DNA of 34,077 bases from Alphaproteobacteria bacterium (GTDB taxonomy: Bacteria; Pseudomonadota; Alphaproteobacteria; Reyranellales; Reyranellaceae). Where the stretch lies: the NCBI GenBank assembly GCA_019239835.1, contig JAFAZJ010000178.1:1-34077 (forward strand). The letters are read 5' to 3'. A program made the translations under genes and the position numbers. Position 1 is the first letter of the stretch. Each line of letters opens with the position of its first letter. This document shows, in pieces, positions 1 through 17,243 of this stretch. Under the pieces are notes generated by a model, which did no database searches, had not been told where the DNA came from, and saw only the letters and a program-made list of their open reading frames with translations.

Positions 1-1
1 G

Positions 2-1680: not shown

Positions 1681-2840
1681 GCGCGCGGCTGATGTTTCAT
1701 GTGCAACATCTGCTAGGCATCGGCCATCTGCGCCGTGCCGCGACGCTGTCGCGTCATTTCGCGGTCGCGGGCTATGACACGGTGCTGACCTCCGGTGGCG
1801 CGCCGGTGCCCGGCTTGGATATCGGCGGCGCGCGGTTGGTGCAGCTGCCACCAGTGCGTGCCACGGACAAGCTGTTCAAGGTTCTGGTCGACGACAACGA
1901 CGCGGTGATCGACGATGCCTTCAAGGCGCGACGTGCCGAGATGCTGGTCGACGCTTTGCGCCAGCAGAAGCCCGACATTTTGTTCATCGAGCTGTTTCCA
2001 TTTGGCCGTCGGCAATTGCGCTTCGAGCTGATGCCGCTGGTCAAGGCGGCGAAAGCTCTGCCCAAGCCACCACGCATCGTCTCGTCAGTGCGCGACATCC
2101 TCGTGCAATCGCCCAAACCTGAGCGCGTTGCCGAAATGGTCGAACTGTTCGAGCGCTATTTCGACGATGTGCTGGTGCACGGCGATCCAGCATTCATTCC
2201 ATTCGCCCGCACCTTTCCGGAGCACGCGCGACTGGCCGACCGTATGCATCACACCGGTTACGTGATCGACGGCCTGCCGAAGCCGGGCCAAACCTCCGAC
2301 GTTGGGCGCGGTGAGGTACTCGTCTCTGCCGGCGGCGGCGCTGTCGGCGCGCCGTTGATGATGGCGGCGCTGGATGCACGCGCACAGAGCAAGGTGCGCG
2401 ATCTGACGTGGCGCTTCCTCTGCGGGCACGGAATGCCGGAGGAGAATTTCAGCGCCTTGCGCGCGCATGCGGCGCGTCTTGACCCCAAAGGCATCGTCGT
2501 CGAGCGGGCGCGCAGCGACTTCACCACCATGCTGGCCAATTGCGTGCTGTCGATCTCGCAGGGCGGCTACAACACCGTGATCGAAACCTTGTCGGTCGCC
2601 GACCGCGCGGTGATCGCACCCTACGCCGGCGGCCTCGAGACCGAGCAGGCGTTCCGCGCCGACCTGCTCGCCGAACGCGGCGTCTTCCAGGTGGTGGCCG
2701 AGGATACGTTGTCGCCGCAGACCCTGGCCGCCGGAGTCGATCGTGCGCTCGACGGACCCTCGATCCGCACCTTCCCACGCATCGACGCCGATGGTGTCGC
2801 CAAAACGCTGAGCCTCGTTCGGGGATGGCTGCGCGCATGA
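1677..2840 (+). CDS. MurG/GT28-like glycosyltransferase
   Basis: A 387-residue protein resembling glycosyltransferases with a MurG/GT28-type C-terminal domain. The N-terminus has a glycine-rich loop with the motif GIGHLRRA, as in MurG-type acceptor domains. The C-terminal domain has the SQGGYNTVIETL segment that in this family lines the UDP-sugar site, followed by a conserved-looking PYAGGLETEQ. Related proteins are often annotated as 'predicted glycosyl transferase' and lie in glycan clusters with deacetylases, as here. No signal peptide or membrane helix is seen, so it is probably cytoplasmic or peripheral. ATG 1677 overlaps the upstream stop by 4 nt and its own stop overlaps the deacetylase start by 4 nt. 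The family is clear; donor and acceptor are unknown. Confidence 0.82.
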   Translation: MSARLMFHVQHLLGIGHLRRAATLSRHFAVAGYDTVLTSGGAPVPGLDIGGARLVQLPPVRATDKLFKVLVDDNDAVIDDAFKARRAEMLVDALRQQKPDILFIELFPFGRRQLRFELMPLVKAAKALPKPPRIVSSVRDILVQSPKPERVAEMVELFERYFDDVLVHGDPAFIPFARTFPEHARLADRMHHTGYVIDGLPKPGQTSDVGRGEVLVSAGGGAVGAPLMMAALDARAQSKVRDLTWRFLCGHGMPEENFSALRAHAARLDPKGIVVERARSDFTTMLANCVLSISQGGYNTVIETLSVADRAVIAPYAGGLETEQAFRADLLAERGVFQVVAEDTLSPQTLAAGVDRALDGPSIRTFPRIDADGVAKTLSLVRGWLRA

Positions 2841-3610
2841 GCGCCTGGCAGGAGCTCGACGATGAGCTGGCGCGCTGGGCCGATCTCGGTCGGATCGCCA
2901 CGTTGTGGTGGCGCGACGACGATGCGATCGATGCCACGGTTGAGCTCGATCGCCTGCTGGCGGTGCGCAGGCGCTATGACGTCGGGCTGGCGTTGGCGGT
3001 CATTCCCGAACGGGCAACCGATGGGCTATCGGCGCGTCTTGCTGAAGACGGTGCCGCGGCGGCGCTGCAGCACGGCTACGCACACCAGAACCATGCCGGC
3101 GGTGGCGAGAAGAAGATCGAGCTGGGGCCACACCGCCCGGCGATGATGGTACTGGGCGAGCTGGGTACCGGCTGGCTGGCGATGGAGCGCCTGTTCGGAA
3201 CCCGCGCGCTGCCTGTGATGGTCCCGCCGTGGAATCGCATCGCGCCGGCGCTGGTGCCGACCTTGCCGGAGATCGGTTTGCGCGGCCTGTCGACCTTCGG
3301 TCCGCGCAAGCGTGTCGAGCCGGTGCGCGGGCTGCGGCAGGTCAACACCCATGTCGATCCGATCGATTGGCATGGCGGTCGCGGCTTCGTTGGTGAACAG
3401 GCGGCCATCACGAGTCTGACACGATCTCTTGCGATTCGTCGCCAAGCCGGGGTCGAGTCCGGTATGAGAGAGGAACCAACGGGTTTGTTGACGCACCACC
3501 TCGTGCAGGATGAGGCGGTTTGGGCGTTCATCGACCAGCTGTTTGCGCGATTGCGCGCTCACTCCGGGGTCCGCATACTCGCGCCGCAAGAGGTCTTTGG
3601 GCTGTCATGA
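2837..3610 (+). CDS. Polysaccharide deacetylase-like (NodB-fold) protein
   Basis: A 257-residue protein with the hallmarks of carbohydrate esterase family 4-type deacetylases in divergent form. W25-R-D27-D28-D29 corresponds to the metal/catalytic Asp motif (TFDDG in classic members). HGYAH supplies the H79-x3-H83 metal ligands. VPPWNRI matches the conserved Pro-Trp motif. It has no signal peptide, unlike secreted chitin or peptidoglycan deacetylases, so it may act on a cytoplasmic glycan precursor. The start at ATG 2837 overlaps the preceding stop (ATGA). Co-location with two glycosyltransferases and a phosphatase supports a role in glycan assembly. Whether it removes an acetyl group from an amino sugar is inference. 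Confidence 0.8.
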   Translation: MSAWQELDDELARWADLGRIATLWWRDDDAIDATVELDRLLAVRRRYDVGLALAVIPERATDGLSARLAEDGAAAALQHGYAHQNHAGGGEKKIELGPHRPAMMVLGELGTGWLAMERLFGTRALPVMVPPWNRIAPALVPTLPEIGLRGLSTFGPRKRVEPVRGLRQVNTHVDPIDWHGGRGFVGEQAAITSLTRSLAIRRQAGVESGMREEPTGLLTHHLVQDEAVWAFIDQLFARLRAHSGVRILAPQEVFGLS

Positions 3611-4113
3611 CAGGGCGGTATCGCTATCGATCGAAGGACTTGCTTGGCGATTATGCGCGGGCCGCGGCCGGCGCGTTGATCTGCCTGGCGCCGGTGGTCT
3701 TCGTCGGCAGCAATGGCGTGACCCTGGCGCTGGCGGCCATCGGTTTGTTGTTCGTGGTCTTCGGCCTGCGCACCGCGTTGCGGCACGCGACGGAGATCGT
3801 GACCGACGATCAGGGCATCGCCGCCGTGGGCCCCCTGTCGCGGCGCATCGAATGGAAGGCGGTCCAGCGCGTGAAGCTCTCCTATTACGCCACGCGCCGC
3901 GACCGTCAGGGCGGCTGGATGCATATGATGCTCGGCGGCCAGGGCGGCACGATCCGCATCGATTCGGCGCTCGAGGGCTTCGACGACATCGCCCGTCGCG
4001 CCGGCCGCGTGGCGATCCAGAACGGCGCCGAGCTCAGCGACACCACCCGGGCCAATTTCGCCGCCCTGGACATCGTGCTGCCCGAGGCCGTGGCGACGGA
4101 TCGCGCGACATGA
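3607..4113 (+). CDS. Small PH-like membrane protein of unknown function
   Basis: A 168-residue protein I cannot assign to a characterised family. Residues about 15-60 hold two hydrophobic stretches (AAAGALICLAPVVFV and LALAAIGLLFVVFGL) forming a membrane hairpin. The remainder is a soluble domain with alternating beta-like segments (TEIVTDDQGIAAVGPLSRRIEW, split by turns) resembling bacterial PH-like domains that follow two transmembrane helices. ATG 3607 overlaps the deacetylase stop and its own stop overlaps the ATPase start, both as ATGA, so it is embedded in the operon at the junction between glycan genes and the ABC transporter. A scaffold or membrane-recruitment role is possible but nothing in the sequence proves it. 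Confidence 0.7.
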   Translation: MTGRYRYRSKDLLGDYARAAAGALICLAPVVFVGSNGVTLALAAIGLLFVVFGLRTALRHATEIVTDDQGIAAVGPLSRRIEWKAVQRVKLSYYATRRDRQGGWMHMMLGGQGGTIRIDSALEGFDDIARRAGRVAIQNGAELSDTTRANFAALDIVLPEAVATDRAT

Positions 4114-6125
4114 CCGATCTGTTGCGCGTCCGCGATCTGAAGATCAATTTCCGCGTCCATGACGGCACGCTGCGCGCGGTCGATGGCGTGTCGTTCTCGG
4201 TCAAGCCCGGCGGCACGGTGGCGCTGGTCGGCGAATCCGGCTCGGGCAAGTCGGTCTGCGCCCAGGCGATCATGGGCCTGCTGCCCAAGGTGGCGACCAT
4301 CGCCGGCGGGTCGATCGAGTTCATCGATCCGGCCGTGGTCGATGCCCAGCCGATCGACATCGCGCGGCTCGACCGCAACGGCAAGGAGATGCGCGCGATC
4401 CGTGGCGGGCGCATATCCATCATCTTCCAGGAGCCGATGACCTCGCTCTCCGCCCTGCACACCGTAGGCGACCAGATCGGCGAGGCTGTAAAGCTGCATG
4501 GCGGGGCGCTCTCGGAGATCGACACCCTGGGCCAGCAGATCGGCGAGGTCGCCGAGCGGGTGCAGGCGCGCGCCGGCCGCAAGATGAGCACCAAGGAGGC
4601 GCTTGAGCTCACCCAGGAGATGCTGGAGCTGGTCGGCTTCCCTGACCCAAAGCGCGCGATGCGCACCTATCCCTTCGAGCTCTCGGGCGGCCTGCGCCAG
4701 CGCGCCATGATCGCCATGGCGCTGGTCTGCCGCCCGGCGCTCTTGATCGCCGACGAGCCGACCACGGCGCTCGACGTCACCATCCAGGCGCAGATCCTGA
4801 AGCTGATGAAGGATTTGCAGGAAAAGCTCGGTATGGCGATGCTGATGATCACCCACGACCTGGGTGTCGTCGCCAACATGGCCGACGAGGTCGTGGTGAT
4901 GTACCGCGGCAAGGTGGTGGAGAGCGGCGCCAGCGAGGACATCTTCCGCCACGCCGAGCATCCCTACCTGAAGGCGCTGCTGCACGCCGTGCCGCGCTTC
5001 GGCATGGCCGACGAGGAGCGGCTGGTGCCGATCCGCGAGATCCAGAGCCAGACAGGCCATCTGCTGGCCGCCAAGGCGCCGGTCGAGAAGACCGGCGACT
5101 TCGATCCCGACGCACCGATCCTCTCGGTGCGTCACATCCACAAGACCTACGCCATCCGCAAGGCGGAGGGCTTCGTCGACTCGATGCTCGGCCGCGGTCC
5201 GGCGCGCATCGTGCACGCGGTCAACGACGTCAGCTTCGACGTGCAGCGCGGTGAATGCCTCGGCCTGGTGGGCGAGAGCGGTTGCGGCAAGACCACGCTC
5301 AGCAAGATCCTGATGCGCGCCATCAGCGCCGATCCCGTCATGGCCAGCAAGGGCGGCGGCATCGTCTTCGACGATCACGGCCGCAAGGTCGACGTCATGG
5401 CGCTGAGCGGTTCGGAGCTGGTGGGATTCCGCCGCAAGCTGCAGTTCATCTTCCAGGACCCGTTCGGCTCGCTCAACCCGCGCATGACGGTATTCGACAT
5501 CATCAGCGAGCCGCTGGTGATCCATCAGGTCGGCGATGCCGAGCATCGTCGCGAGATGGTGGGTGAGCTGATGGAGCTGGTCGGGCTCGACCGCCGCCAC
5601 CTCAACCGCTACCCGCATTCCTTCTCCGGCGGCCAGCGCCAGCGCATCGGCATCGCGCGATCTCTGGCGCTGCGGCCCGACATGGTGATCTGCGACGAGC
5701 CGGTTTCGGCGCTCGACGTATCGATCCAGGCGCAGATCCTCAACCTGCTGAAGGATCTGCAGGACAGGCTGGGCCTGACCTACATGTTCATCAGCCACAA
5801 CCTGGCGGTGGTCGATTACATTGCCGACCGCATCGCCGTGATGTGCGCCGGACGGCTGGTCGAGCTGGCGCCGGGCCGCGAGCTGTTCCGCAATCCCGTG
5901 CATCCCTACACCAAGGCGCTGCTGGCGGCGGTGCCCGAGCCCGATCCGTCCAAGCGGCTGGACCTCGGCGCGCTGATGGAAGGCAAGGCTTCGATCCCGT
6001 CGGAATGGCCTGCCCCGTTCACCGAGAGCGAGGCGACACCGCTGGATTGGATCGACCTCGGCAACAGCCATTTTGTGCGCGCAGGCGCCGGGCTGCTCGG
6101 ACGTCCCTCGGAGAGGGCGGCATGA
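4110..6125 (+). CDS. Fused double ATPase of peptide-type ABC importer (DppD-DppF-like)
   Basis: A 671-residue protein carrying two complete nucleotide-binding domains, equivalent to DppD plus DppF or to GsiA. First domain: Walker A GESGSGKS at 41-48, signature LSGG at 191-194, Walker B Asp215 with Glu216 in IADEP. Second domain: Walker [10 protein letters not shown] at 388-396, signature FSGGQ at 505-509, Asp529/Glu530 in ICDEP. After the first domain lies an oligopeptide-type C-terminal segment ([12 protein letters not shown]), repeated after the second ([12 protein letters not shown]). The first domain has an extra stretch between Walker A and signature, including a helical region around 125-165, which partly explains the greater length than YejF-type fused ATPases. 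It powers the permeases encoded at 8341 and 9350. Starts at ATG 4110 by 4-nt overlap. Confidence 0.95.
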
Positions 6126-8056
6126 TGAAGCGCTGGGTGATCGCCGTGATCTGTGCGGTCCTGTGGGCCGGCACAGGCATGGCACAGCCGGCGCCGAAGG
6201 AAACCGCGCTGTTCGCCGACAAGGTGAAGGCGGGACAGATGCCGCCGGTCGAGCAGCGCCTGCCGCAATCGCCCCTGGTCGTGACCGAGTTCGCCGGCAA
6301 GGACGGCCCCGGCAAGCAGGGCGGCGAGATCACCATGCTGATGGCCACGCCGCGCGACGTGCGCATGATGGTGGTCTACGGCTACAGCCGGCTGGTGGGC
6401 TTCAACCACAAGTTCGAGCTCAAGCCCGACATCCTCGAGAGCGTCAACGTCGAGCAGGGGCGGATCTTCACCCTGAAGCTGCGGCCGGGACACAAATGGT
6501 CCGACGGCGAGCCGTTCACGACGGAGGACTTCCGTTACTTCTGGGAGGACGTCGCCAACAATGAGGACCTGTCGCCGGTGGGCCCGCCGATCGAGATGAT
6601 GGTCGACGGCAAGCCGCCGAAGATCGACATCATCGACGCCACGACCATCAGATACACTTGGGATCAGCCCAATCCCGGCTTCCTGGAGGCCCTTGCCCGA
6701 CCCTCGCCGCTGTTCATCTTCCGGCCGGCGCACTACCTCAAGAAGTTCCACAAGAAGTACGCCGATCCGGCATTCCTCGATAAGGTGCTCAAGGAGTCCG
6801 GCCCGCGCGGCTGGGCGCCGCTGCACAATCGCCTCGACGACATGTACCGCAACGAGAACCCGGACCTGCCGACGCTCGAGTCGTTCGTGCTGAAGACGAA
6901 GCCGCCGTCGCAGCGTTTCGTCTTCGAGCGCAATCCGTACTATCACCGCGTCGACAGCCAGGGCACGCAACTGCCCTATCTCGATCGCATCGTGATGAAC
7001 ATCGCCAGCGCCCAGCTGATCTCGCTGAAGGCCGGCTCCGGCGAAAGCGACCTGCAGGCGCGCTACCTCAAATTCTCGGACTACACGTTCCTGCGCAAGG
7101 GCGCGAAGCAATTCGGCTTCGAGGTGAAGCTGTGGGACACGGCTTTGGGCAGCAACATCGCCATCTTCCCGAATCTTACCGTCAAGGATCCGGTGTATCG
7201 CGCACTGTTTCGGGAGGCCAATTTCCGGCGCGCGCTGTCGATGGCAATCGATCGCGAGGAGATCAACGAGCTGCTCTATATCGGCCTGGCGCAGCCCTCG
7301 CAGAACACGGTGCGCCCGCAATCGCCGCTCTATCGTCCCGAATACGCGAGCAAGTGGGCCAATTTCGACATCAAGGAGGCCAACCGGCTGCTCGACAAGA
7401 TCGAGTTCAAGTGGGCCGACGGCAAGACGGGTACGATCCGCAAGCGCGACGAGCTAGGCATCCGCCTCTTGCCCGATGGCAGGCCGCTGCACATCCTGCT
7501 GGAGACGGACGGGCAAGTGAGCGAGGAGGCCGACGTGCTGCAGCTGGTTGCCGACACCTGGAAGCAGGTCGGTATCAAGCTGTACGTGCGGGCCCGCGAT
7601 CGCCAGGATCTCCGCGCCCGGCTCTATGCCGGCGAGACGCAGATGACGGTCGACAATGGATGGGAGAATGGCCTTGCCAGCGCCACGTCCAACCCGGCCG
7701 ACCTCGCCTGTCTGACCCAGACCACGAGGTGGTGCTCGGCCTGGGGGCAATACCGCGACACCTATGGCAAGTCGGGCGAACCGGTCGACTTGCCGAGCGT
7801 CCAGCACATGAATGAGCTGGCTGAGAAGTGGGAGAAATCTTCCGATCCCAAGGAGCAGGAAAAGATCTGGCACGAGCTGCTGCAGGCGCATGCCGATCTG
7901 GTGTTCACGATCGGCATCGTGTCGGGCGTTCAGCAGCCGGTGGTGAGGAGTCCGCGTCTGCGCAACGTGCCGGACAAGGGCATCTACAACTGGATCCCCA
8001 CGTCGCACTTCGGGGCCTACCGGCTCGACTCGTTCTGGCTGGATGGCGCGCGATGA
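6122..8056 (+). CDS. Family 5 extracellular solute-binding protein of peptide-type ABC importer
   Basis: A 644-residue periplasmic binding protein that should deliver ligand to the adjacent permeases. The N-terminus is a signal peptide: K3-R4, a hydrophobic core WVIAVICAVLW, and a likely cleavage after GMA (residue 21). SBP family 5 features include the segment KLRPGHKWSDGEPFTTEDF and the motif RRALSMAIDREEINELL. At 644 residues it is about 100 longer than DppA or OppA. Two closely spaced Cys (LACLTQTTRWCSAW) near the C-terminal third may form a disulfide. Substrate is unknown: peptides, opines, oligosaccharides and other large solutes are all handled by this family. ATG 6122 overlaps the ATPase stop (ATGA); ATG 6125 is an equally possible initiator. 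The downstream small gene overlaps its stop. Confidence 0.92.
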   Translation: MMKRWVIAVICAVLWAGTGMAQPAPKETALFADKVKAGQMPPVEQRLPQSPLVVTEFAGKDGPGKQGGEITMLMATPRDVRMMVVYGYSRLVGFNHKFELKPDILESVNVEQGRIFTLKLRPGHKWSDGEPFTTEDFRYFWEDVANNEDLSPVGPPIEMMVDGKPPKIDIIDATTIRYTWDQPNPGFLEALARPSPLFIFRPAHYLKKFHKKYADPAFLDKVLKESGPRGWAPLHNRLDDMYRNENPDLPTLESFVLKTKPPSQRFVFERNPYYHRVDSQGTQLPYLDRIVMNIASAQLISLKAGSGESDLQARYLKFSDYTFLRKGAKQFGFEVKLWDTALGSNIAIFPNLTVKDPVYRALFREANFRRALSMAIDREEINELLYIGLAQPSQNTVRPQSPLYRPEYASKWANFDIKEANRLLDKIEFKWADGKTGTIRKRDELGIRLLPDGRPLHILLETDGQVSEEADVLQLVADTWKQVGIKLYVRARDRQDLRARLYAGETQMTVDNGWENGLASATSNPADLACLTQTTRWCSAWGQYRDTYGKSGEPVDLPSVQHMNELAEKWEKSSDPKEQEKIWHELLQAHADLVFTIGIVSGVQQPVVRSPRLRNVPDKGIYNWIPTSHFGAYRLDSFWLDGAR

Positions 8057-8337
8057 CCAGCCCGCCACGCTTCGCGATCCACGACATGCGCAGCATCGAC
8101 GCCGCACGGCGTCGGCGCTCGCGGCACTGGGATTTCCGCTTCGTCATGGCCGTGCTGCTGCTCTACGGCTGCCTTGGCGTAGCGTTCTTCGCCGTCGAAT
8201 GGATGCACACTGTGCCCGACAACAAGCCGCCTACCGCTCAGGAGCTGAGGGACTGGAGCACGGCGCGCGGCCTGCATCCGGTCGTGCGCCCGCTCGCGCT
8301 CGAGCCGCCGGGCAGTGGTCCGGCGGAGGGGCGCTGA
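8053..8337 (+). CDS. 94-residue single-helix membrane protein inside the ABC operon
   Basis: Small protein not recognised as any known transporter subunit. It has an Arg-rich N-terminal segment (AARRRRSRHWDFR), one hydrophobic helix at about residues 30-48 (FVMAVLLLYGCLGVAFFAVEW), and a Pro-rich C-terminal tail of about 45 residues. By the positive-inside rule the N-terminus is cytoplasmic and the tail periplasmic. ATG 8053 overlaps the stop of the binding-protein gene (ATGA) and the permease start follows after three bases, so translation is probably coupled on both sides. Position and topology suggest an accessory subunit of the importer. The overlap and packing argue that it is a real gene; its function is unknown. 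Confidence 0.72.
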   Translation: MTSPPRFAIHDMRSIDAARRRRSRHWDFRFVMAVLLLYGCLGVAFFAVEWMHTVPDNKPPTAQELRDWSTARGLHPVVRPLALEPPGSGPAEGR

Positions 8338-8340
8338 AAC

Positions 8341-9339
8341 ATGCTGTCCTACATCGTCAAGCGTTTCCTGATCATGATCCCGACGCTGCTCATCATCAGC
8401 GCGCTGGTCTACTTCATCATCAACCTGCCGCCGGGCGATTGCGTCACGACGATCATCGACGAGCTGATGGCGCGCGGCGATCCCAACGCAACGCGCAAGG
8501 CCGAGCAGATTCGCCACCTCTATGGCCTCGACCAGCCGGTGTGGATGCAATATCTGCACTGGGTCAAGGGCATCTTCTCGTGGGATTTCGGCCTGTCGTG
8601 CCAGGACCAGATCCCGGTATCGAAGCTGATCGGCGACCGCATGCTGCTGACCATCATGATGGAAAGCGCGACCATCGCCTTCATCTGGATCGTCTCTTTC
8701 GTCATCGGCGTCTATGCCGCCACGCATCAATATCGCCCGGGCGACTACCTGGCCTCGTTCATCGGCTTCATCGGCCTGGCGACGCCGAACTTCCTGCTGG
8801 CGCTGGTGCTGCTGTACATCGGCAAGGTCTATTTCGGCGTCTCCGTCGGCGGCCTGATGGATCCGCAGTATCTCGATCAGCCATGGAACTGGGCAAAGTT
8901 CCGCTCGGTTCTCGAGCATCTGCTGATTCCCGTCATCGTCATCGGCACCGCCGGGACCGCCGGCATGATCCGCCGCCTGCGCGCCAACCTGCTCGACGAG
9001 CTGCAGAAGCAATACGTGGTCACCGGCCGCGCCAAGGGCCTGCCGCCGATGCGGCTGCTGATCAAGTATCCGCTGCGCCACGCGCTCAACCCGTTCATCG
9101 CCGATATCGGCCACATCCTGCCCGAGGTGATCTCGGGCTCGGTGATCGTCTCGGTGGTGCTGTCGTTGCCGACAACCGGGCCGATGCTGCTGGAGGCGCT
9201 GAAGAGCCAGGACGTGAACCTCGCCGCGACCTTCCTGCTGTTCGTCGCCGTGCTGACCGTGATCGGCACCCTGATCTCCGACCTCCTGCTGGCCGCGCTC
9301 GATCCGCGCATCCGCCTGCAGGGCGGCGCGACGCGTTGA
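8341..9339 (+). CDS. ABC importer permease, DppB-like
   Basis: A 332-residue inner-membrane permease of the peptide/nickel family. It begins with the typical DppB helix (MLSYIVKRFLIMIPTLLIIS) and a periplasmic loop with a LYGLDQPVWMQYLHW segment, then has about five further helices. The cytoplasmic EAA-type coupling loop is visible as VVTGRAKGLPPMRLLIKYPL, which docks on the ATPase. A GAGGGG ribosome-binding sequence lies about nine bases before the ATG. It should pair with the DppC-like permease encoded at 9350 to form the channel. One unusual point is a longer loop before the coupling helix (about residues 160-195) than in E. coli DppB. Confidence 0.94.
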   Translation: MLSYIVKRFLIMIPTLLIISALVYFIINLPPGDCVTTIIDELMARGDPNATRKAEQIRHLYGLDQPVWMQYLHWVKGIFSWDFGLSCQDQIPVSKLIGDRMLLTIMMESATIAFIWIVSFVIGVYAATHQYRPGDYLASFIGFIGLATPNFLLALVLLYIGKVYFGVSVGGLMDPQYLDQPWNWAKFRSVLEHLLIPVIVIGTAGTAGMIRRLRANLLDELQKQYVVTGRAKGLPPMRLLIKYPLRHALNPFIADIGHILPEVISGSVIVSVVLSLPTTGPMLLEALKSQDVNLAATFLLFVAVLTVIGTLISDLLLAALDPRIRLQGGATR

Positions 9340-9349
9340 GGTCGCCAGG

Positions 9350-10516
9350 ATGACCGACGCGCCCGCGCCCAAGCCGCCGCACTTCGTCTCCAAGGAGCCA
9401 TGGGATCCGTACGTCGCCGACCGGCTGACGGCGGAGCAGGAACGCTTCTACATGGCCAACCAGTGGCAGCTGATGTGGTGGCGCCTGCGCCGCCACAAGC
9501 CGGCTGTCGTCTGCGGCTTCTTCCTGCTGTTCATGTATCTCACGGTCCTGATCAGCGAGCTGATCGCGCCCTACGACCTGCAGACGCGCCACACCAAGAG
9601 CATCTTCGCGCCGCCGCAGGGCATTCATCTGTTCCACGAAGGCAGTTTCGTCGGACCGTTCGTCTACGGCTACAGGATGGAGCGCGACCTCGACACGCTG
9701 CAGCGAATCTATATCGAGGACACGACTCAGGTGCAGAAGCTGCGCTTCTTCTGCCTCGGCGAAGAGTACGAATTCTGGGGCTTGATCCCCGGCCGCTTCC
9801 ATTTCGTCTGCCCGGCGCAGGGCGGCACCTTCTTCCTGCTTGGCACCGACCGGCTCGGGCGCGACATGTTCAGCCGCATCGTCTACGCGGCGCGCATCTC
9901 GCTCACCGTCGGCCTGTTCGGCGTCACGATGAGCTTCGTGCTGGGCCTCGTGATCGGCGGCATCGCCGGTTACTACGGCGGCTGGATCGACAACGTGATT
10001 CAGCGCGTCATCGAGATCATCAAGAGCTTCCCGCATCTGCCGTTGTGGCTGGCGCTTTCAGCCGCGCTGCCGGTCTCGTGGTCGCCGCTGCTGGTCTATT
10101 TCGGCATCACCATCATCCTGGCGCTGCTCGACTGGCCCGGCCTGGCGCGCGCCGTACGCTCGAAGCTTCTGAGCCTGCGCGAGGAGGATTTCGCCACCGC
10201 CGCGCTGCTGATGGGCGCCAGTCCGAAACGCATCATCGGCCGGCACCTGCTGCCCAGCTTCATGAGCCATCTGATCGCCTCGGCGACGCTCAGCATTCCC
10301 TCGATGATCCTCGCCGAGACGGCGCTGTCCTTCCTCGGCCTGGGCCTACGGCCGCCGCTGGTGTCGTGGGGCGTGCTGCTCAACGACGCTACGGACATCA
10401 ACGTGGTGGCGGTGAACTGGTGGCTGATGCTGCCGGTGGTGCCGGTGATCCTGGTGATCCTTTCCTTCCAGTTCTTCGGCGATGGCCTGCGCGACGCGGC
10501 GGATCCCTACCAGTAA
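9350..10516 (+). CDS. ABC importer permease, DppC-like, with extended N-terminus and periplasmic insert
   Basis: A 388-residue permease, about 90 residues longer than DppC. Residues 1-50 form a charged cytoplasmic extension, followed by the first helix (VVCGFFLLFMYLTVLISEL). A soluble insert of roughly 90 residues (about 77-168), with two Cys (RFFCLGEE and FHFVCPAQ), separates it from the conserved LGTDRLGRDMFSR motif that normally follows the first helix closely. The EAA-type loop is EEDFATAALLMGASPKRII. From memory, similar inserts occur in a subfamily of peptide-type permeases, so the insert is not an artefact. It closes the transporter operon; a pair of hairpins lies just after the stop. 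An AGG-rich ribosome-binding site precedes the ATG. Confidence 0.93.
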   Translation: MTDAPAPKPPHFVSKEPWDPYVADRLTAEQERFYMANQWQLMWWRLRRHKPAVVCGFFLLFMYLTVLISELIAPYDLQTRHTKSIFAPPQGIHLFHEGSFVGPFVYGYRMERDLDTLQRIYIEDTTQVQKLRFFCLGEEYEFWGLIPGRFHFVCPAQGGTFFLLGTDRLGRDMFSRIVYAARISLTVGLFGVTMSFVLGLVIGGIAGYYGGWIDNVIQRVIEIIKSFPHLPLWLALSAALPVSWSPLLVYFGITIILALLDWPGLARAVRSKLLSLREEDFATAALLMGASPKRIIGRHLLPSFMSHLIASATLSIPSMILAETALSFLGLGLRPPLVSWGVLLNDATDINVVAVNWWLMLPVVPVILVILSFQFFGDGLRDAADPYQ

Positions 10517-10532
10517 TCACCTGACTTTTTCG

Positions 10533-10573
10533 CTGACGCATCCGTCAGATTTTCCGACGCAGGATCGGAAAAT
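10533..10573. repeat. Two adjacent short hairpins after the ABC operon
   Basis: Two perfect inverted repeats stand side by side. CTGACG (10533-10538) pairs with CGTCAG (10543-10548) across a 4-base loop. ATTTTCCGA (10549-10557) pairs with TCGGAAAAT (10565-10573) across a 7-base loop. No U-tract follows on the + strand, so intrinsic termination is doubtful. The pair may instead be an operator or an mRNA-stabilising structure between the ABC operon and tctB. The repeats are seen directly; the role is unknown. Confidence 0.5.
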
Positions 10574-10699
10574 GCGTTGTGCGGTATCGACGCAAGGCGC
10601 GGTCAGTCCTGCGTCAGAGACCTCATGCTATGCGCTCAGTGTCGCCAAACAAACCGAGTGCGGACAACCGCACCCCGGCATCCGACAGGGGGGATTGGG

Positions 10700-11149
10700 G
10701 TGGACAGACTTCTATCGAAGGACTTCTGGTCCGGGCTGATGTTCGCCGGGTTCGGCGTGCTTGCCCTTGCCCTTGGCAGCAACCTCGCGGTGGGTACGGC
10801 GGTGCGCATGGGGCCCGGCTACGTGCCCCGCATGCTGAGCTACATCCTGATCGCGTTGGGCCTTGTCATTCTCGTGCGCGCGATCATCGCGCCCGGCGAC
10901 TCGATCGAGCGCCTGCGCTGGAAGCCGATCACCATGATCACCATCGGCGTGGTCGCCTTCGCGCTGCTGTTCGAAAGCGCAGGTATGGCGCCGGCCCTGA
11001 TTGCGCTGGTCTTTCTTTCGGCGCTGGGCGGCGAGGAATTCAAGGTGGTCGAGACCGTCCTGTCCTGCGTCGCGCTCATTGCGCTGTGCGTCGTCATCTT
11101 CAAGCTCGGTCTGCAAATGAACATCTACGTCATTCAGGGAGTGTGGTGA
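10700..11149 (+). CDS. tctB: Tripartite tricarboxylate transporter small subunit TctB
   Basis: A 149-residue membrane protein with four to five hydrophobic helices (for example LMFAGFGVLALALGSNLAVG and PALIALVFLSALGG) and the MGPGYVPRMLSY segment typical of TctB. It forms the small membrane subunit of a secondary, binding-protein-dependent carboxylate importer together with TctA. The start chosen is GTG 10700: a GGGGGGA ribosome-binding sequence lies just upstream, and the protein then begins VDRLLSKDFWSG as in TctB relatives. An in-frame ATG at 10577 would add 41 residues with no family resemblance. tctA follows after one base. No TctC-type periplasmic binding protein is in the window, so the ligand-binding partner must be encoded elsewhere. 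Confidence 0.88.
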   Translation: MDRLLSKDFWSGLMFAGFGVLALALGSNLAVGTAVRMGPGYVPRMLSYILIALGLVILVRAIIAPGDSIERLRWKPITMITIGVVAFALLFESAGMAPALIALVFLSALGGEEFKVVETVLSCVALIALCVVIFKLGLQMNIYVIQGVW

Positions 11150-11150
11150 C

Positions 11151-12671
11151 ATGGACATCCTCGGCCATGTCATGATGGGTTTCGGGATCGCGCTGACGTT
11201 CCAGAACCTGCTGTACTGCCTGATCGGTTGCATGGTCGGCACCTTGATCGGCGTGCTGCCCGGCATCGGCCCGGTTGCCACCATCGCCATGCTGCTGCCG
11301 CTGACCTTCAAGCTGCCGCCGACCTCGGCGCTGATCATGCTCGCCGGCATCTACTACGGTGCGCAGTACGGCGGCTCGACCACGTCGATCCTGGTGAACC
11401 TGCCCGGCGAGGCCTCGTCGGTGGTGACCACGCTCGACGGCTACCAGATGGCGCGGCGCGGGCGCGCCGGCGCGGCGCTATCCGTCTCGGCATTGGGCTC
11501 GTTCTTCGCCGGCACGGTGGGCACCTTGCTGATCGTGCTGTTCGCGCCCGCATTGACGGCAATGGCGCAGAAATTCGGCCCTGCCGAATATTGCTCGCTG
11601 ATGGCCCTGGGCCTGGTCGCCGCCGTCGTGCTGGCCAGCGGCTCGGTGATCAAGGCGATCGCCATGGTCTTCCTCGGCCTGCTGTTCGGACTGGTCGGCA
11701 CCGACGTCAATACGGGCGCGCAGCGTTACACCTTCAACGTGCCCGAGCTCAGCGACGGCATCGACTTCGCGCCGATCGCCATGGGCCTGTTCGGCATCGC
11801 CGAGATCATCGGCAACCTCGAGAAGCGCATGAACATGCGCGACGGCGCTGCCAGGGTCGGCAGCCTCCTGCTGTCGTTCCAGGACTTCAAGCGCTCGATC
11901 TGGCCGGTGATCCGCGGCACGGCGCTGGGCTCGGTGCTGGGTGTGCTGCCCGGCGGCGGCCCGACCTTGGCGGCGTTCTCGGCCTATACGCTGGAGAAGA
12001 AGTTCTCGGCCGCGACTGCGGCGAAGTATGGCGATGCCTTCGGCAAGGGCGCCATCGAGGGCGTGGCCTCGCCGGAAGCAGCCAACAACGCCGCGGCGCA
12101 GACCTCGTTCATCCCGATGCTGACGCTCGGCATTCCATCCAACGCCGTGATGGCGCTGATGGTCGGCGCGATGATCATCCAGGGCATCCAGCCCGGCCCC
12201 GAGGTGATGACCAAGAAGCCCGACCTCTTCTGGGGCATGATCGCCTCGATGTGGGTCGGCAACCTGATGCTGGTGATCATCAACCTGCCGATGATCGGCA
12301 TGTGGGTGAAGCTGCTGACGGTGCCCTACCGCTTCCTCTACCCGGCGATCCTGCTTTTCTGCGCCATCGGTGCTTACTCGCTGCAGAACTCGATCTTCCA
12401 CGTCGAGCAGGTCGCGATGTTTGGCGTGCTGGGCTACATCTTCATGAAGCTCGGTTGCGAGGGCGCGCCGTTCCTGCTCGGCCTCGTGCTCGGCCCGCAG
12501 ATGGAAGAGTATTTCCGCCGCGCCATGCTGCTGTCGCGCGGCGATCCCAGCGTCTTCGTCACCCGCCCGATCAGCGCCGGCCTGCTGATCGTCACCGCGT
12601 TCCTGCTGCTGCTCATGGCACTGCCCAACCTGCGCAAGAAGCGCGAAGAGGCGTTCCAAGAGGAGGGCTAA
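11151..12671 (+). CDS. tctA: Tripartite tricarboxylate transporter large subunit TctA
   Basis: A 506-residue integral membrane protein of normal TctA length with about 11-12 hydrophobic helices. Diagnostic segments are IGVLPGIGPVATIAMLLPLTF near the N-terminus (split by a loop), YYGAQYGGSTTSIL, the second-half repeat LGVLPGGGPTLAAF, and EGVASPEAANNAAAQTSFIPM. The paired LPGxGP motifs reflect the internal duplication of this family. It transports a carboxylate such as a tricarboxylate or aromatic acid using an ion gradient, with TctB and an extracytoplasmic TctC protein. It is almost certainly co-transcribed with tctB (one-base gap). The substrate cannot be told from the sequence. Confidence 0.96.
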   Translation: MDILGHVMMGFGIALTFQNLLYCLIGCMVGTLIGVLPGIGPVATIAMLLPLTFKLPPTSALIMLAGIYYGAQYGGSTTSILVNLPGEASSVVTTLDGYQMARRGRAGAALSVSALGSFFAGTVGTLLIVLFAPALTAMAQKFGPAEYCSLMALGLVAAVVLASGSVIKAIAMVFLGLLFGLVGTDVNTGAQRYTFNVPELSDGIDFAPIAMGLFGIAEIIGNLEKRMNMRDGAARVGSLLLSFQDFKRSIWPVIRGTALGSVLGVLPGGGPTLAAFSAYTLEKKFSAATAAKYGDAFGKGAIEGVASPEAANNAAAQTSFIPMLTLGIPSNAVMALMVGAMIIQGIQPGPEVMTKKPDLFWGMIASMWVGNLMLVIINLPMIGMWVKLLTVPYRFLYPAILLFCAIGAYSLQNSIFHVEQVAMFGVLGYIFMKLGCEGAPFLLGLVLGPQMEEYFRRAMLLSRGDPSVFVTRPISAGLLIVTAFLLLLMALPNLRKKREEAFQEEG

Positions 12672-12678
12672 TGCCTTC

Positions 12679-12830
12679 CCTTCTCCCCGCGCAGGCGGGG
12701 AGAAGGTGCCGAGCGTTAGCGAGGCGGATGAGGGGCTTACCGGCCTCTCATCCGCCTCGGTGCTTTTTGCAATACCGTGAAGCCCCTCATCCGCCCTTCG
12801 GGCACCTTCTCCCCGCATCCGCGAGGAGAA
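12679..12830. repeat. Intergenic mosaic palindromic repeat
   Basis: Nested inverted repeats fill the gap between tctA and the CorC-like gene. The first is a perfect hairpin, CCTTCTCCCCGC / GCGGGGAGAAGG (12679-12706, 4-base loop). Bases 12695-12738 are complementary in blocks to 12780-12815: GCGGGGAGAAGGTGCC with its reverse complement, and GGCGGATGAGGGGC with GCCCCTCATCCGCC. Inside, CGAGGCGGATGAG (12720-12732) pairs with CTCATCCGCCTCG (12747-12759). The wording is very like the intergenic mosaic repeats scattered through alphaproteobacterial genomes. It may end or stabilise the tctBA transcript, but there is no U-tract. Confidence 0.8.
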
Positions 12831-12875
12831 GGAGGCTTGATCACAACCCCGGCCCATGCGTGATTCAGGGCTGAC

Positions 12876-14153
12876 ATGGTCGATCTTCTCATCACCGTCG
12901 CGCTGATCGCGCTGAATGGCGTGTTCGCGCTGTCTGAGCTGTCGGTGATTTCCTCGCGGCGCGGCCGTCTGAAAGCCCTGGCCGACGCCGGCAACCGCGG
13001 CGCGCGTATCGCGCTGGATCTGGCCGAGAATCCAGGCCGCTTCCTGTCGACGGTGCAGATCGGCATCACCCTGGTCGGCATCCTGGCCGGCGCCTTCTCC
13101 GGCGCGACCCTGGGCGGCGCGCTCACCGAGCTCCTGGTGGCGCACGGCGTGCCGCATTCCTGGGCCGATCCCCTCGGCTTCGGTGGCGTCGTCGCCGTCG
13201 TAACCTACCTCTCCGTCGTGATCGGCGAGCTGGTGCCCAAGCAGCTGGCGCTACGCTCGCCCGAGCGCATCGCTGTCGTCGTCGCCGGTCCGCTGGCCAT
13301 GCTCTCGCGGATCGCCACGCCGCTCGCCGCCGTGCTCAACCTGTCGTCGTCGGTGGTGTTGCGGGTCTTCGGCAAGGCCAACGACGAGGACAAGCGCATC
13401 ACCGAGGACGAGATCCGCGCCATGGTCGCCGAGGCCGAGTCGGCCGGCATCGTCAAGCCGGGCGAGCGGCGCATGATCTCCGGCGTCATGCGTCTGGCCG
13501 ATCGCGGCGTGCGCGCCATCATGACGCCGCGCCCCGACATCGAGTGGATCGACATTAACTCGACCGACGAGGAGATCATCGCCGAGATCCGCGCCTCCGA
13601 CCGGACCTGGCTGCTGGCCTGCGAGGCCAACCCGGATCATGTCGTGGGCGTGCTGCGCGCGCGTCATCTGCTGCAGGACCGGCTCGACGGCCGCAACACG
13701 CCGATCCGCGAGCTGCTGAATCAGCCGGTCGTGCTGCCCGACACACTCAACGCCCTGCAGGCGCTCGATCGGCTCTACGAATCGGGCAACGGCTTCGGCC
13801 TGGTGCTCGACGAGTACGGCCATTGCGAGGGCATCGTCACGCGCGCCGACGCGCTCAAGGCGATCCGCGGCGAGCACGCCACCGGCGAGGCCGAGGACGA
13901 TCCGATGGTGGTGCGCCGCGAGGACGGCTCGTTCCTCGTCGCCGGCGCGCTGCCGGTCGACACCCTGCGCGACACCATGGGCCTGCGGCTGCCCACCGAA
14001 CGGCCCTACCACACGGTCGCCGGATTGGTGCTGCACGAGCTGCGTCGGGTACCTGCCGTCACCGACGTGGTGGTCGTGGACGGGTGGCGGATCGAGGTCG
14101 TCGACATGGACGCCCGCCGCATCGACCAGGTGCTGATGAGCAAAGCGCCCTGA
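12876..14153 (+). CDS. DUF21/CBS/CorC-domain membrane protein (hemolysin-like family)
   Basis: A 425-residue inner-membrane protein of the CNNM/CorC family. Residues about 1-180 are the DUF21 transmembrane domain (opening ITVALIALNGVFALSELSVI, with GELVPKQLALRSPERIA). Residues about 200-330 form a CBS pair that binds adenine nucleotides in relatives (DRGVRAIMTPRPDIEWI and LDEYGHCEGIVTRADAL). The C-terminal 85 residues are the CorC/HlyC domain (DPMVVRREDGSFLVAGALP). Members are linked to Mg2+ or Co2+ efflux; the old label 'hemolysin' is misleading. It stands alone between a repeat and a convergent gene only 18 bases away, with no clear terminator between them. Confidence 0.93.
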   Translation: MVDLLITVALIALNGVFALSELSVISSRRGRLKALADAGNRGARIALDLAENPGRFLSTVQIGITLVGILAGAFSGATLGGALTELLVAHGVPHSWADPLGFGGVVAVVTYLSVVIGELVPKQLALRSPERIAVVVAGPLAMLSRIATPLAAVLNLSSSVVLRVFGKANDEDKRITEDEIRAMVAEAESAGIVKPGERRMISGVMRLADRGVRAIMTPRPDIEWIDINSTDEEIIAEIRASDRTWLLACEANPDHVVGVLRARHLLQDRLDGRNTPIRELLNQPVVLPDTLNALQALDRLYESGNGFGLVLDEYGHCEGIVTRADALKAIRGEHATGEAEDDPMVVRREDGSFLVAGALPVDTLRDTMGLRLPTERPYHTVAGLVLHELRRVPAVTDVVVVDGWRIEVVDMDARRIDQVLMSKAP

Positions 14154-14171: not shown

Positions 14172-15194
14172 TCACACCACGTCGTAGTTGATCTCGACCT
14201 CGCGGCCGAAGGCATGGCCCTGGCAGGTCAGCACCCAGCCATTGTCGAGGTCTTCCTGGGTGTAGATGTCGTTGGCCGCGAGCATGACCTCGCCCTTCAC
14301 CTTCTTGGCCGCGCAGGAAGCGCAGAAGCCTTCCTCGCAGGCCGAGTTTGGCGAAAGCCCCGCCGCACGCGCCGCCTGCAGGATGGTCTGCCCCTTTTGA
14401 TAGGGCACCGTGTAGGTCTTGCCTTCGAGGCGGATGGTGATGCTGTCCGGAATGACCTTGTCGTCGTCATCCGGAATCGGCACCGCCGCATTGGCCGAGG
14501 CCTCGAAGCGTTCGATGATCACGCGTTCGCGCGCCATGCCGCGCTTCAGCAGCGCGTCCTCGACCAGGGTCATGAAGGGGCCGGGCCCGCAGAGATAGGC
14601 GGCGCCGGCGTCGAAGCCGTCGGCCATCGCCGCCTCGATCTTCGCGGCCGTGGTCAGGCCGTGCTCGGCATCGAGATGGTGGATGATCTCCAGCCGGCCG
14701 GGATAGGCCAGCGCCAGCGCCTCGAGCTCGGCGCGGAAGATGATCGAGGGCCGGTCGCGGTTGGCATAGAACAGCCGCACGCGGCGCTGCGTGGTCTTCA
14801 GCGCGCTCTTGATCAAGGACAGCACGGGCGTGATGCCGCTGCCGCCGGCGAACAGCAGGATCGGCGCGCCGCCATCGACCAGCAGGAAACGGCCAGCCGG
14901 CGGCATGACGTCGATCGTGCCGCCCTCTACCAGCGCGTCGTTGAACCAGTTCGAGCCGCGGCCGCCGGCCACTCGCTTGACCGTGACCTTTGGTCGCGCG
15001 TCGGTCTCGGGTGAGGAGCAGAGCGAATAGCAACGCGCCACCTCGCCCTCGGGATGGGTGACGCGGAACGTCAGGAATTGCCCGGCCTTGTAGCGGAAAC
15101 GGTCGGCCAGATCGGGCGGGACCTCGAACACGAAGGAGCGCGCGTCAGAGGTTTCCTGGATGATCTGGATGATCTTGAGGGGGTGGTACGGCAT
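14172..15194 (-). CDS. Flavin- and 2Fe-2S-containing NAD(P)H oxidoreductase (PaaE-like reductase)
   Basis: A 340-residue electron-transfer protein with FAD-, NAD- and ferredoxin-type domains in that order. The FAD domain carries RCYSLCSSP (R-x-Y-S-type flavin motif). The NAD domain has LLFAGGSGITPVLSLI and the late YLCGPGPFM motif. The C-terminus is a plant-type ferredoxin domain with four cluster Cys: C286, C291, C294 and C324 (C-x4-C-x2-C-x29-C). This is the architecture of reductases serving diiron oxygenases, such as PaaE of phenylacetyl-CoA epoxidase. It is transcribed divergently from the ferritin-like diiron gene at 15305, its most likely electron acceptor. No PaaABCD homologues are in the window. 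Fold and cofactors are confident; the partner is inferred. Confidence 0.93.
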   Translation of the reverse strand: MPYHPLKIIQIIQETSDARSFVFEVPPDLADRFRYKAGQFLTFRVTHPEGEVARCYSLCSSPETDARPKVTVKRVAGGRGSNWFNDALVEGGTIDVMPPAGRFLLVDGGAPILLFAGGSGITPVLSLIKSALKTTQRRVRLFYANRDRPSIIFRAELEALALAYPGRLEIIHHLDAEHGLTTAAKIEAAMADGFDAGAAYLCGPGPFMTLVEDALLKRGMARERVIIERFEASANAAVPIPDDDDKVIPDSITIRLEGKTYTVPYQKGQTILQAARAAGLSPNSACEEGFCASCAAKKVKGEVMLAANDIYTQEDLDNGWVLTCQGHAFGREVEINYDVV

Positions 15195-15304
15195 GGACGT
15201 TGTCCTGCGGAATTTTCCCTGACTCGTCTAGCGCAGTGTGATAGCTTCCGGCCAGAAAAATGAACAGTGCGTCACGTTTCGCGACCCGACCTTAGGAGCA
15301 GGGA
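15195..15304. promoter_or_regulatory. Divergent promoter region between reductase and diiron-protein genes
   Basis: A 110-base intergenic gap lies between two divergent starts, so promoters for both genes must lie here or overlap the coding ends. I see no convincing -35/-10 pair on either strand. An AGGAG ribosome-binding site at 15294-15298 sits six bases before ATG 15305. The shared region would allow joint regulation of reductase and oxygenase. Confidence 0.5.
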
Positions 15305-16372
15305 ATGTCGAGCACCCGCCTCTACCAGCTGCCCGTCGACATCACCGAGTGGAAGTTCGACGGCAAGACCGAGATGAACTTCACCTGGGAGTACGAGGAC
15401 GGCAGCGCCGAGCTTCTGAACCTCTACGAGAAAGGCAAGCAGCAGCAGTGGGACGCCTCGACGCGTCTCGACTGGTCGCAGGAGCTGTTCGAAGAGAACC
15501 CGATGGGCATGGCCGACGAGACCATCCCGATCTATGGCTCGCCCTTCTGGGAGAAGATGACCGAGAAGGAGAAGATCGACCTGCGCTGGAACCTGCAGAG
15601 CCACTCGATCTGCCAGTTCATGCATGGCGAACAGGGCGCGCTGATCGCGACCGCCAAGATCGTCAACACCGTCCCCGACATGAACGCCAAGTTCTACGCC
15701 GCGACGCAGGTGATGGACGAGGCGCGCCACGTCGAGAGCTACAAGCGGCTGATCCACGAGAAGTTCAAGATGGCGTACCCGATCACGCCGTCGCTACAGA
15801 GCCTGCTCGAGCAGACGTTGAGCGACAAGCGCTGGGACTTCACCTATCTCGGCATGCAGGTGCTGATCGAGGGCCTGGCGCTGGCCGCCTTCCAGCGCAT
15901 CCGCGACACGGCGAAGAACAACCTCGCCAGCTCGGTCAACGCCTACGTCATGCAGGACGAGGCGCGCCACGTCACCTTCGGACGCCTGGCGCTACGCGAG
16001 TTCTATCCGCACCTCACCGAGGCCGAGCGGGCCGAGCGCGAGGAGTTCTGCGTCGAGGCGCTGTACTTCATGCGCGACCGCTTCAACCAGGGCGAGGTCT
16101 GGATGCGCTCGGGCCTGCCGGTCGATAAGCTGATGGAATACGCCTACAACTCCGGCGTCATGCAGGCTTTCCGCACCCGCCTGTTCACCCGCGTCGTGCC
16201 GATCCTCAAGGACATCGGCCTGTGGGGCGAGAAGGTGCAGAAGGCGCTCAACGACATGAACGTCATGGAGTACGCCAAGATCGACGCCTCGGCGATCCTC
16301 GCCAACGACCTGAAGGTCGCCGACGATTTCGACAAGAAGCGCTTCGTCGCCGAGCAGATCGCGGCGCAGTAA
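15305..16372 (+). CDS. Ferritin-like carboxylate-bridged diiron protein, probable oxygenase
   Basis: A 355-residue soluble helical protein with a full carboxylate-bridged diiron ligand set: E109 (GEQGA), E139 and H142 (DEARH), E189 (LIEGLAL), and E219 with H222 (second DEARH). Two ExxH motifs plus two single Glu on four helices is the arrangement of ribonucleotide reductase R2, bacterial multicomponent monooxygenases and AurF-like N-oxygenases. It is too long for a storage ferritin and has no signal peptide. It is transcribed divergently from a PaaE-like reductase, suggesting a two-component O2-activating system. The substrate is unknown. The AGGAG site at 15294 supports the ATG at 15305. A repeat and a terminator hairpin follow the stop. 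Confidence 0.88.
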   Translation: MSSTRLYQLPVDITEWKFDGKTEMNFTWEYEDGSAELLNLYEKGKQQQWDASTRLDWSQELFEENPMGMADETIPIYGSPFWEKMTEKEKIDLRWNLQSHSICQFMHGEQGALIATAKIVNTVPDMNAKFYAATQVMDEARHVESYKRLIHEKFKMAYPITPSLQSLLEQTLSDKRWDFTYLGMQVLIEGLALAAFQRIRDTAKNNLASSVNAYVMQDEARHVTFGRLALREFYPHLTEAERAEREEFCVEALYFMRDRFNQGEVWMRSGLPVDKLMEYAYNSGVMQAFRTRLFTRVVPILKDIGLWGEKVQKALNDMNVMEYAKIDASAILANDLKVADDFDKKRFVAEQIAAQ

Positions 16373-16490: not shown

Positions 16491-17174
16491 CTACTTGCAA
16501 GCCTCGATCTTGGGCTCGCCATCGAGGATGGAAGCGATGCGGCTGATGTCGAGGCAGCGATCGCCGATCCAGCCCACGCCGTGCGCGAATAGTCCGTAGC
16601 GGGCCAGCGTGTCGACCTTGCCCTCGATCGATGGCTGCTGCTGCGCGATCAGCCAGCCCAGCATGAAGATGTTGGACGTGGCGAAGTCGCCGGCGACCTC
16701 GTTGCCATTCTTCCGCCAGAGCTCGGCGTTGGCCTTGGCCGCCTTGGCCGATGCACCGCTCGCCTGCGCGCCGACGCTCTCGGTCCAGCGATAGGCCGCC
16801 TCGGCTGCGGGATCCTGCCCGCCGGCGCGCGACTTCTCGGCCTTCACCTCGGCGGCGGCGGTGCGATAGGGCTTGCCGCCCATCGTATCGTGCTCGCAGC
16901 CCATCGTGCGGCAGATCTGCACCCACGACAGGTATTCGCCGAAAGTGATTTCGGTGTTGCGGTTGTTGTGCAGGCGCCACTTGCGCGCCATGTCCCAGCC
17001 GCGCGCGTAGAGATTGTGGGCGCGCGGCTTGCCCATCAGGGGCGAGTCTTTCTCGATGATGTCGAGGACCGCACCGGCCGCCTTGGGCCATTCCGCCGGC
17101 ATCTGCGCGTGGGCCGCACCCATGGCGCAAACCATGACCACGACGGCGACGATCGCCGCCCGAATCCCTGCCAT
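16491..17174 (-). CDS. Exported protein of unknown function with four mature cysteines
   Basis: I do not recognise the family. The start chosen (ATG with its complement at 17172-17174) gives 227 residues and has a GGAG ribosome-binding sequence eight bases upstream. An upstream ATG at 17204 would add ten residues and lacks such support. The N-terminus is a signal peptide (MAGIRAAIVAVVVMVCAMG, then AAHA cleavage site). The mature protein is mainly helical and contains four Cys (QICRTMGC, GDRCLD and IEAC near the C-terminus), compatible with two disulfides in the periplasm. A middle stretch (GASAKAAKANAELWRKNGNE) is Ala/Lys-rich. It is transcribed after the secreted histidine phosphatase gene, 69 bases away. 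Confidence 0.72.
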   Translation of the reverse strand: MAGIRAAIVAVVVMVCAMGAAHAQMPAEWPKAAGAVLDIIEKDSPLMGKPRAHNLYARGWDMARKWRLHNNRNTEITFGEYLSWVQICRTMGCEHDTMGGKPYRTAAAEVKAEKSRAGGQDPAAEAAYRWTESVGAQASGASAKAAKANAELWRKNGNEVAGDFATSNIFMLGWLIAQQQPSIEGKVDTLARYGLFAHGVGWIGDRCLDISRIASILDGEPKIEACK

Positions 17175-17243
17175 CCGTTTCGCTCCGTCGCACACCCGGC
17201 GCAAAGATGCGGGAGCGGATTCGTGCTTGTCCAGTCCGTGCGG

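Follow-up and report, generated by a model that had tools for sequence, protein, structure and literature searches.

A divergent gene pair conserved in Reyranellaceae predicts a reductase-linked AurF-fold diiron oxygenase or oxidase lacking the N-oxygenase histidine

Here we describe two divergent genes in a 34,077-nucleotide stretch of alphaproteobacterial DNA (the window) that, in our judgement, quite likely encode a two-component NAD(P)H- and O2-dependent diiron oxygenase or oxidase, the diiron protein representing a distinct subfamily of the AurF fold. The reductase would transfer hydride from NAD(P)H to its FAD and relay electrons one at a time, via the [2Fe-2S] domain at its C terminus, to the dimetal centre of its ferritin-like partner which, once reduced, would activate O2 to a peroxo-level oxidant and oxidise an organic substrate. 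Electrons would thus flow from the reductase to the diiron protein, the metal would be iron rather than Mn/Fe, and the chemistry would be that of an oxygenase rather than an oxidase. A preliminary description of this DNA had considered a simple two-protein O2-activating system plausible; we infer the same from gene order and metal ligands, and conserved pairing of the two genes supports it. Two features go beyond that description: a conserved operator-like palindrome between the divergent genes, which is new here, and the absence from the diiron protein of the seventh-ligand His of N-oxygenases. The features discussed are as follows.

14172-15194, minus strand: reductase gene, 340 aa, predicted NAD(P)H-dependent, with domains in the order FAD - NAD - [2Fe-2S].
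15195-15304: divergent intergenic region, 110 bases, aligned with 26 relatives.
15220-15278: conserved block with promoter-like TGTGATAG (15237-15244) and the operator-like element, from the alignment of 27 intergenic regions.
15256-15275: imperfect palindrome, operator-like, AAAA-ATGAACAGTGCGTCAC, with core TGAACAGTGCGTCA at 15261-15274, from the counts at paired loci.
15305-16372, plus strand: diiron protein gene, 355 aa, ferritin-like, from PF11583, ligands and model.
16491-17204, minus strand: convergent neighbour of no known family, 237 aa, conserved at the diiron gene in Reyranellaceae.

The reductase and diiron reading frames are real, as judged by GC3 (0.89 and 0.95, respectively) and long HMM matches. 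Their divergent arrangement with a 110-base gap is as previously described, the gap being exactly 15195-15304, and no paaABCD genes adjoin the pair, again in agreement with the earlier account. The reductase gene is flanked by the diiron gene on one side and a gene for a CNNM/CorC-type protein on the other. The genome that contains the window is 67% complete and its relatives are Reyranellaceae. The convergent neighbour (cluster 5) adjoins the diiron gene in 41 loci, gave no match in a Pfam search and, by eye, likely carries a signal peptide; we regard it as a candidate member of the pair's system only. Elsewhere in the window (8341-12671), translations judged by eye resemble peptide-type ABC permeases followed by TctB/TctA-like proteins of a tripartite tricarboxylate transporter.

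The diiron protein matches the Pfam family AurF (PF11583) over residues 38-305 with 65.3 bits, above the gathering cut-off of 29.6. The full ligand set assigned to it earlier (E109, E139, H142, E189, E219 and H222) proved invariant in 82/82 relatives, down to ~25-35% identity. One alternative explanation is that the protein is an N-oxygenase like AurF, CmlI and DnfA, acting on an amine, an amide or a hydroxylamine. The PF11583 match is consistent with this, as is the pairing of DnfA with an FAD/2Fe-2S reductase (PMC9478400) and the presence of a Streptomyces relative (41% identity) in a natural-product-like, possibly N-N, cluster. However, the FDO N-oxygenases are described as characterised by a seventh His located four positions ahead of the final Glu ligand (PMC12154687, PMC9478400), His209 in DnfA and His225 in AzoC, and this His occurs in none of the 82 aligned relatives; the equivalent residue four before E219, V215 in the window, is Val in 79 and Ile in 3. 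The ligand spacing also differs, being 30/50/30 in the window's protein as opposed to 35/59/31 in DnfA and 35/61/31 in AzoC. Because position 215 is Val or Ile and the spacing differs, the protein reads as an AurF-fold diiron protein that fails the N-oxygenase test, and we regard action as an N-oxygenase as distinctly unlikely. The phylogeny that the preliminary description had proposed as a check places the protein in a clade without the seventh His of AurF and CmlI. Since this hallmark metal ligand is missing, an amine-type substrate is unlikely and the enzyme probably oxidises something else; its O2 chemistry may nonetheless equal that of the N-oxygenases. Another contig of the window's genome (L124:7410-8546, minus strand) encodes a member of a paralogous ferritin-like family, 26-31% identical and with no Pfam match, of which many alphaproteobacteria carry several copies per genome.

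An AlphaFold2 model of the diiron protein (39 relatives, mean pLDDT 75) is a ferritin-like bundle, and the nearest solved folds are effectively tied: AurF (Z 20.2), R2lox (Z 19.9) and CmlI (Z 19.4). Searches of the PDB with the single sequence or a single clade gave weak matches only, and a broader profile (A2) was used instead. This profile matched R2lox II (E 1.4e-8) and a designed helix bundle, with aldehyde-deformylating oxygenases (ADOs) next at E ~1e-6. No NCBIfam family scored above its cut-off, including the R2-like ligand-binding oxidase model NF006200 (20.5 bits, cut-off 194) and the ADO model TIGR04059 (16.4 bits, cut-off 222.65), and the Pfam family of the ribonucleotide reductase small chain (PF00268) was likewise below threshold (23.2 bits, cut-off 33.6). 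These scores bear on two further possibilities. The protein might be a dimetal oxidase or scavenger that yields no organic product, R2lox-like or removing O2 or NO, with the reductase as its source of electrons; the R2lox II match and fold score favour this, the low score against the NCBIfam R2lox model argues against it, and we consider it unlikely. Alternatively, it might be an ADO-style aldehyde-deformylating enzyme or another oxygenase of fatty-acyl-derived substrates. The rank of ADOs among the solved matches is consistent with the latter, as are aldehyde and alcohol dehydrogenase genes behind one relative and genes for acyl-CoA enzymes near others. We nevertheless think this very unlikely given the TIGR04059 score, a chain more than 100 aa longer than those of ADOs, and no acyl-ACP reductase gene seen adjoining the diiron gene.

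The preferred reading, a two-component AurF-fold system, also depends on the reductase. Its FAD_binding_6, NAD_binding_1 and Fer2 domains each score above the Pfam cut-off, and the iron-sulphur Cys residues (C286, C291, C294 and C324) are identical in 41/41 related reductases, in keeping with the domains and cysteines first assigned to it; so is the motif R54-x-Y56-S57 (RxYS). The label 'PaaE-like', given in the same description, is right as to architecture, FAD, NAD and plant-type [2Fe-2S] domains following one another in the PaaE-type order, but by the curated cut-off the protein falls outside PaaE. PaaE (TIGR02160) is its best NCBIfam match, at 221.3 bits, approximately half of the equivalog cut-off of 420.8. 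The gene is not encoded with paaABCD, and in the reductase tree its branch is separate from that of PaaE and nearer to the reductases of HsaA/BphC-type clusters. That its nearest relatives elsewhere, 43-45% identical, are found in clusters with HsaA/BphC-like genes is a point against dedicated pairing, and the reductase could also serve other oxygenases. Taken further, the two genes might be incidental neighbours, the reductase serving another oxygenase of the Rieske or PaaABC type and a housekeeping ferredoxin reducing the diiron protein, in line with the many diiron relatives that have no reductase in cis. Against this explanation, which we consider highly improbable, stand the divergent arrangement and common operator, both strictly conserved in Reyranellaceae, the pair in a genome of another alphaproteobacterial family (G044) and a separate pairing in gammaproteobacteria.

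An order-wide search found the diiron gene in 74/75 Reyranellaceae genomes, including all 51 of good quality, and it is therefore a core gene of this family. Conservation of the pair in relatives, a check set out in the preliminary description, was examined in a contig scan of 76 loci. Of these, 64 contain the reductase, which in almost every case diverges from the diiron gene across a gap of 110-280 bases; most of the remaining loci are at contig ends or hold paralogs without a partner. This conservation rules out a divergent pair by chance. A second diiron copy (B, ~72% identical) is found in Reyranella beyond the reductase gene, where it lies behind the gene of an OmpR-type response regulator and opposite one for GTP cyclohydrolase II, and some genomes have a third, unpaired copy (C), giving up to three diiron paralogs per one reductase gene. 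The block of GTP cyclohydrolase II, OmpR-type regulator and second diiron copy beyond the reductase can be seen at L062:2367-5504 and at many other Reyranella loci.

Beyond Reyranellaceae, the divergent arrangement is retained in G044 (reductase and diiron protein each 58% identical), next to an AMP-ligase gene. In further families of Alphaproteobacteria, diiron relatives that are 52-66% identical lack a reductase gene of this kind within at least 1.5 kb, indicating that the partner need not be encoded in cis. In gammaproteobacteria, where diiron relatives are 33-39% identical, 12 loci have a reductase gene directly upstream and co-directional, and in G042 a MerR gene separates the two (reductase-MerR-diiron); these reductases fall on a different tree branch from that of the window. 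Reductases of two lineages thus accompany one diiron family, and no other observation speaks as strongly for the two proteins working together. A better electron-transfer partner beside the diiron gene, which the preliminary description had named as grounds for rejecting the pairing, was not found in most genomes; an FdxA ferredoxin gene lies beside it in one Rhodococcus plasmid. Three gammaproteobacterial copies seem to contain an in-frame TAG, but this is simply their ordinary stop codon close to the C terminus.

In addition to gene order, the paired loci share a candidate cis-regulatory element. The 27 aligned intergenic regions have a common block around AAAAATGAACGGAGCGTCATCTTT, within which the palindrome follows the family consensus TGA[AC]CGnnGCGTCA. 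Allowing up to 1 mismatch to this consensus, with expectations from dinucleotide shuffles, and with the caveat that related loci do not give independent observations, the palindrome occurs upstream of 57/57 paired genes (0.10 expected). It also occurs upstream of 33/52 B copies (0.25 expected) and 8/10 remaining Reyranellaceae copies, B and C classes being set by identity and pairing such that a few may be misplaced. A symmetric form, TGACGC-N2-GCGTCA, precedes 12/23 distant relatives of 33-40% identity that have no reductase in cis (0 expected), and the palindrome is found in 0/23 members of the clade at 52-59% identity. Scans of whole genomes with the pattern gave few further sites, with no clear recurrence between genomes. 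The one recurring site, in the gap between FAD monooxygenase and acyl-CoA dehydrogenase genes, overlaps a possible start codon; two genomes from the same genus as the window have it, and it was not found in a third. A literature search for the palindrome returned nothing relevant. Its conservation suggests an operator, with TGTGATAG as a putative promoter element, and a regulator that recognises the palindrome probably controls expression of the pair.

A second element bears on the oxidase or scavenger explanation. An exact TTGAT-N4-ATCAA box (FNR/FixK-type) stands beside the palindrome at 5/10 unpaired Reyranellaceae copies and 3/23 distant ones; L055, L058, L063, L053 and L059 are loci where such boxes lie upstream of unpaired diiron paralogs, next to the palindrome. 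If these boxes are FNR sites, as their conservation suggests, the unpaired paralogs that carry them are probably tuned to low oxygen, in keeping with a role in O2 or NO removal. In contrast, the box is found at 0/57 paired genes, and we therefore claim no oxygen control for the window's pair.

Neighbourhoods vary between clades; no constant neighbour or common substrate gene emerged across them. Acyl and hydrocarbon chemistry are the recurrent themes, and they hint, as the most speculative part of our proposal, at a substrate that is lipid-, acyl- or hydrocarbon-like rather than an amine. Aldehyde dehydrogenase and Fe-ADH genes lie behind one diiron relative (L233), an FA_hydroxylase gene adjoins another (L289), and enoyl-CoA hydratase (ECH) and acyl-CoA dehydrogenase (ACAD) genes are near others. 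The diiron neighbours in L298 include an AMP-ligase, an FMO, a PF10118 protein, a GMC oxidoreductase, a P450, a ferredoxin and a ferredoxin reductase, and the stretch could be a hydrocarbon or lipid oxidation island. In this gammaproteobacterial stretch (L298:321-15185), diiron and reductase genes occur together with those for the PF10118 metal hydrolase, FMO, P450, ferredoxin and GMC oxidoreductase. CYP153 and AlmA were considered as identities for these neighbours, but NCBIfam matched them to no more than generic P450 and FMO models, with scores under the cut-off. The Streptomyces relative noted above (L111, positions 1-12978, plasmid of Streptomyces sp. NBC_00536) is accompanied by AMP-ligases, carrier proteins, an FAD/NAD-binding protein and a lyase-family protein, a cluster that resembles a natural-product cluster, possibly of N-N chemistry.

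Altogether, we tentatively propose, at somewhat less than even odds, a previously undescribed two-component AurF-fold subfamily that has a six-ligand site, attacks lipid-like C-H bonds, belongs to the Reyranellaceae core, answers to a conserved dedicated regulator through TGACGC-N2-GCGTCA and has extra copies under FNR-type control. The characterised AurF-fold enzymes considered here are all N-oxygenases, and chemical mediators are commonly used in their assays. The present subfamily lacks the N-oxygenase hallmark, comes with a reductase of its own and is found in 74/75 genomes of one family. Two questions thereby become directly testable: what the AurF fold does without its seventh His, and whether its electrons naturally come from a reductase of the PaaE type. 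The operator between the genes offers a way to find the regulator and, through it, the inducer, possibly the substrate itself.

How does the pair compare with known systems? With PaaE, the window's reductase shares the FAD - NAD - [2Fe-2S] order and 37-41% identity to the reductases of apparent paaABCDE operons, called from gene sizes and order, whereas it scores under the PaaE cut-off, lacks paaABCD and occupies a separate tree branch. R2lox and cyanobacterial ADO resemble the diiron protein as ferritin-like dimetal proteins with six ligands and are its best profile matches among solved structures, yet it falls far below their curated cut-offs. To our knowledge, R2-like ligand-binding oxidases and cyanobacterial ADO as a rule have no adjacent gene for a dedicated PaaE-type reductase. 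AurF, CmlI, AzoC and Dob3 share with it the fold (Z 20.2 for AurF and 19.4 for CmlI), the six core ligands and PF11583; unlike them, it has no seventh His, another ligand spacing and 15-16% identity in structural alignments, and its gene is a family core gene rather than a member of a natural-product cluster. The nearest precedent is the Alcaligenes system DnfAB, in which DnfA, of the AurF family, acts with DnfB, an FAD/NAD/2Fe-2S reductase (PMC9478400), in hydroxylamine oxidation or glutamine N-hydroxylation (PMC9478400, PMC11160463), and a two-component AurF-family design is thus already known. As in Dnf, a PF11583 diiron protein and an FAD / NAD(P) / 2Fe-2S reductase are encoded side by side, in the window and in 64/76 loci, and both systems have a predicted cytoplasmic two-component design. 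The site of DnfA comprises three His and four Glu, with His209 as seventh ligand (PMC9478400), whereas the window has V215 at that position and no three-His site; the spacing is 30/50/30 rather than 35/59/31, no dnfC-type amidotransferase gene is adjacent, and the genes are divergent, in contrast to the single dnf operon. The pair described here is therefore distinct from DnfAB in its metal site, ligand spacing, core-gene status, divergent layout and shared operator.
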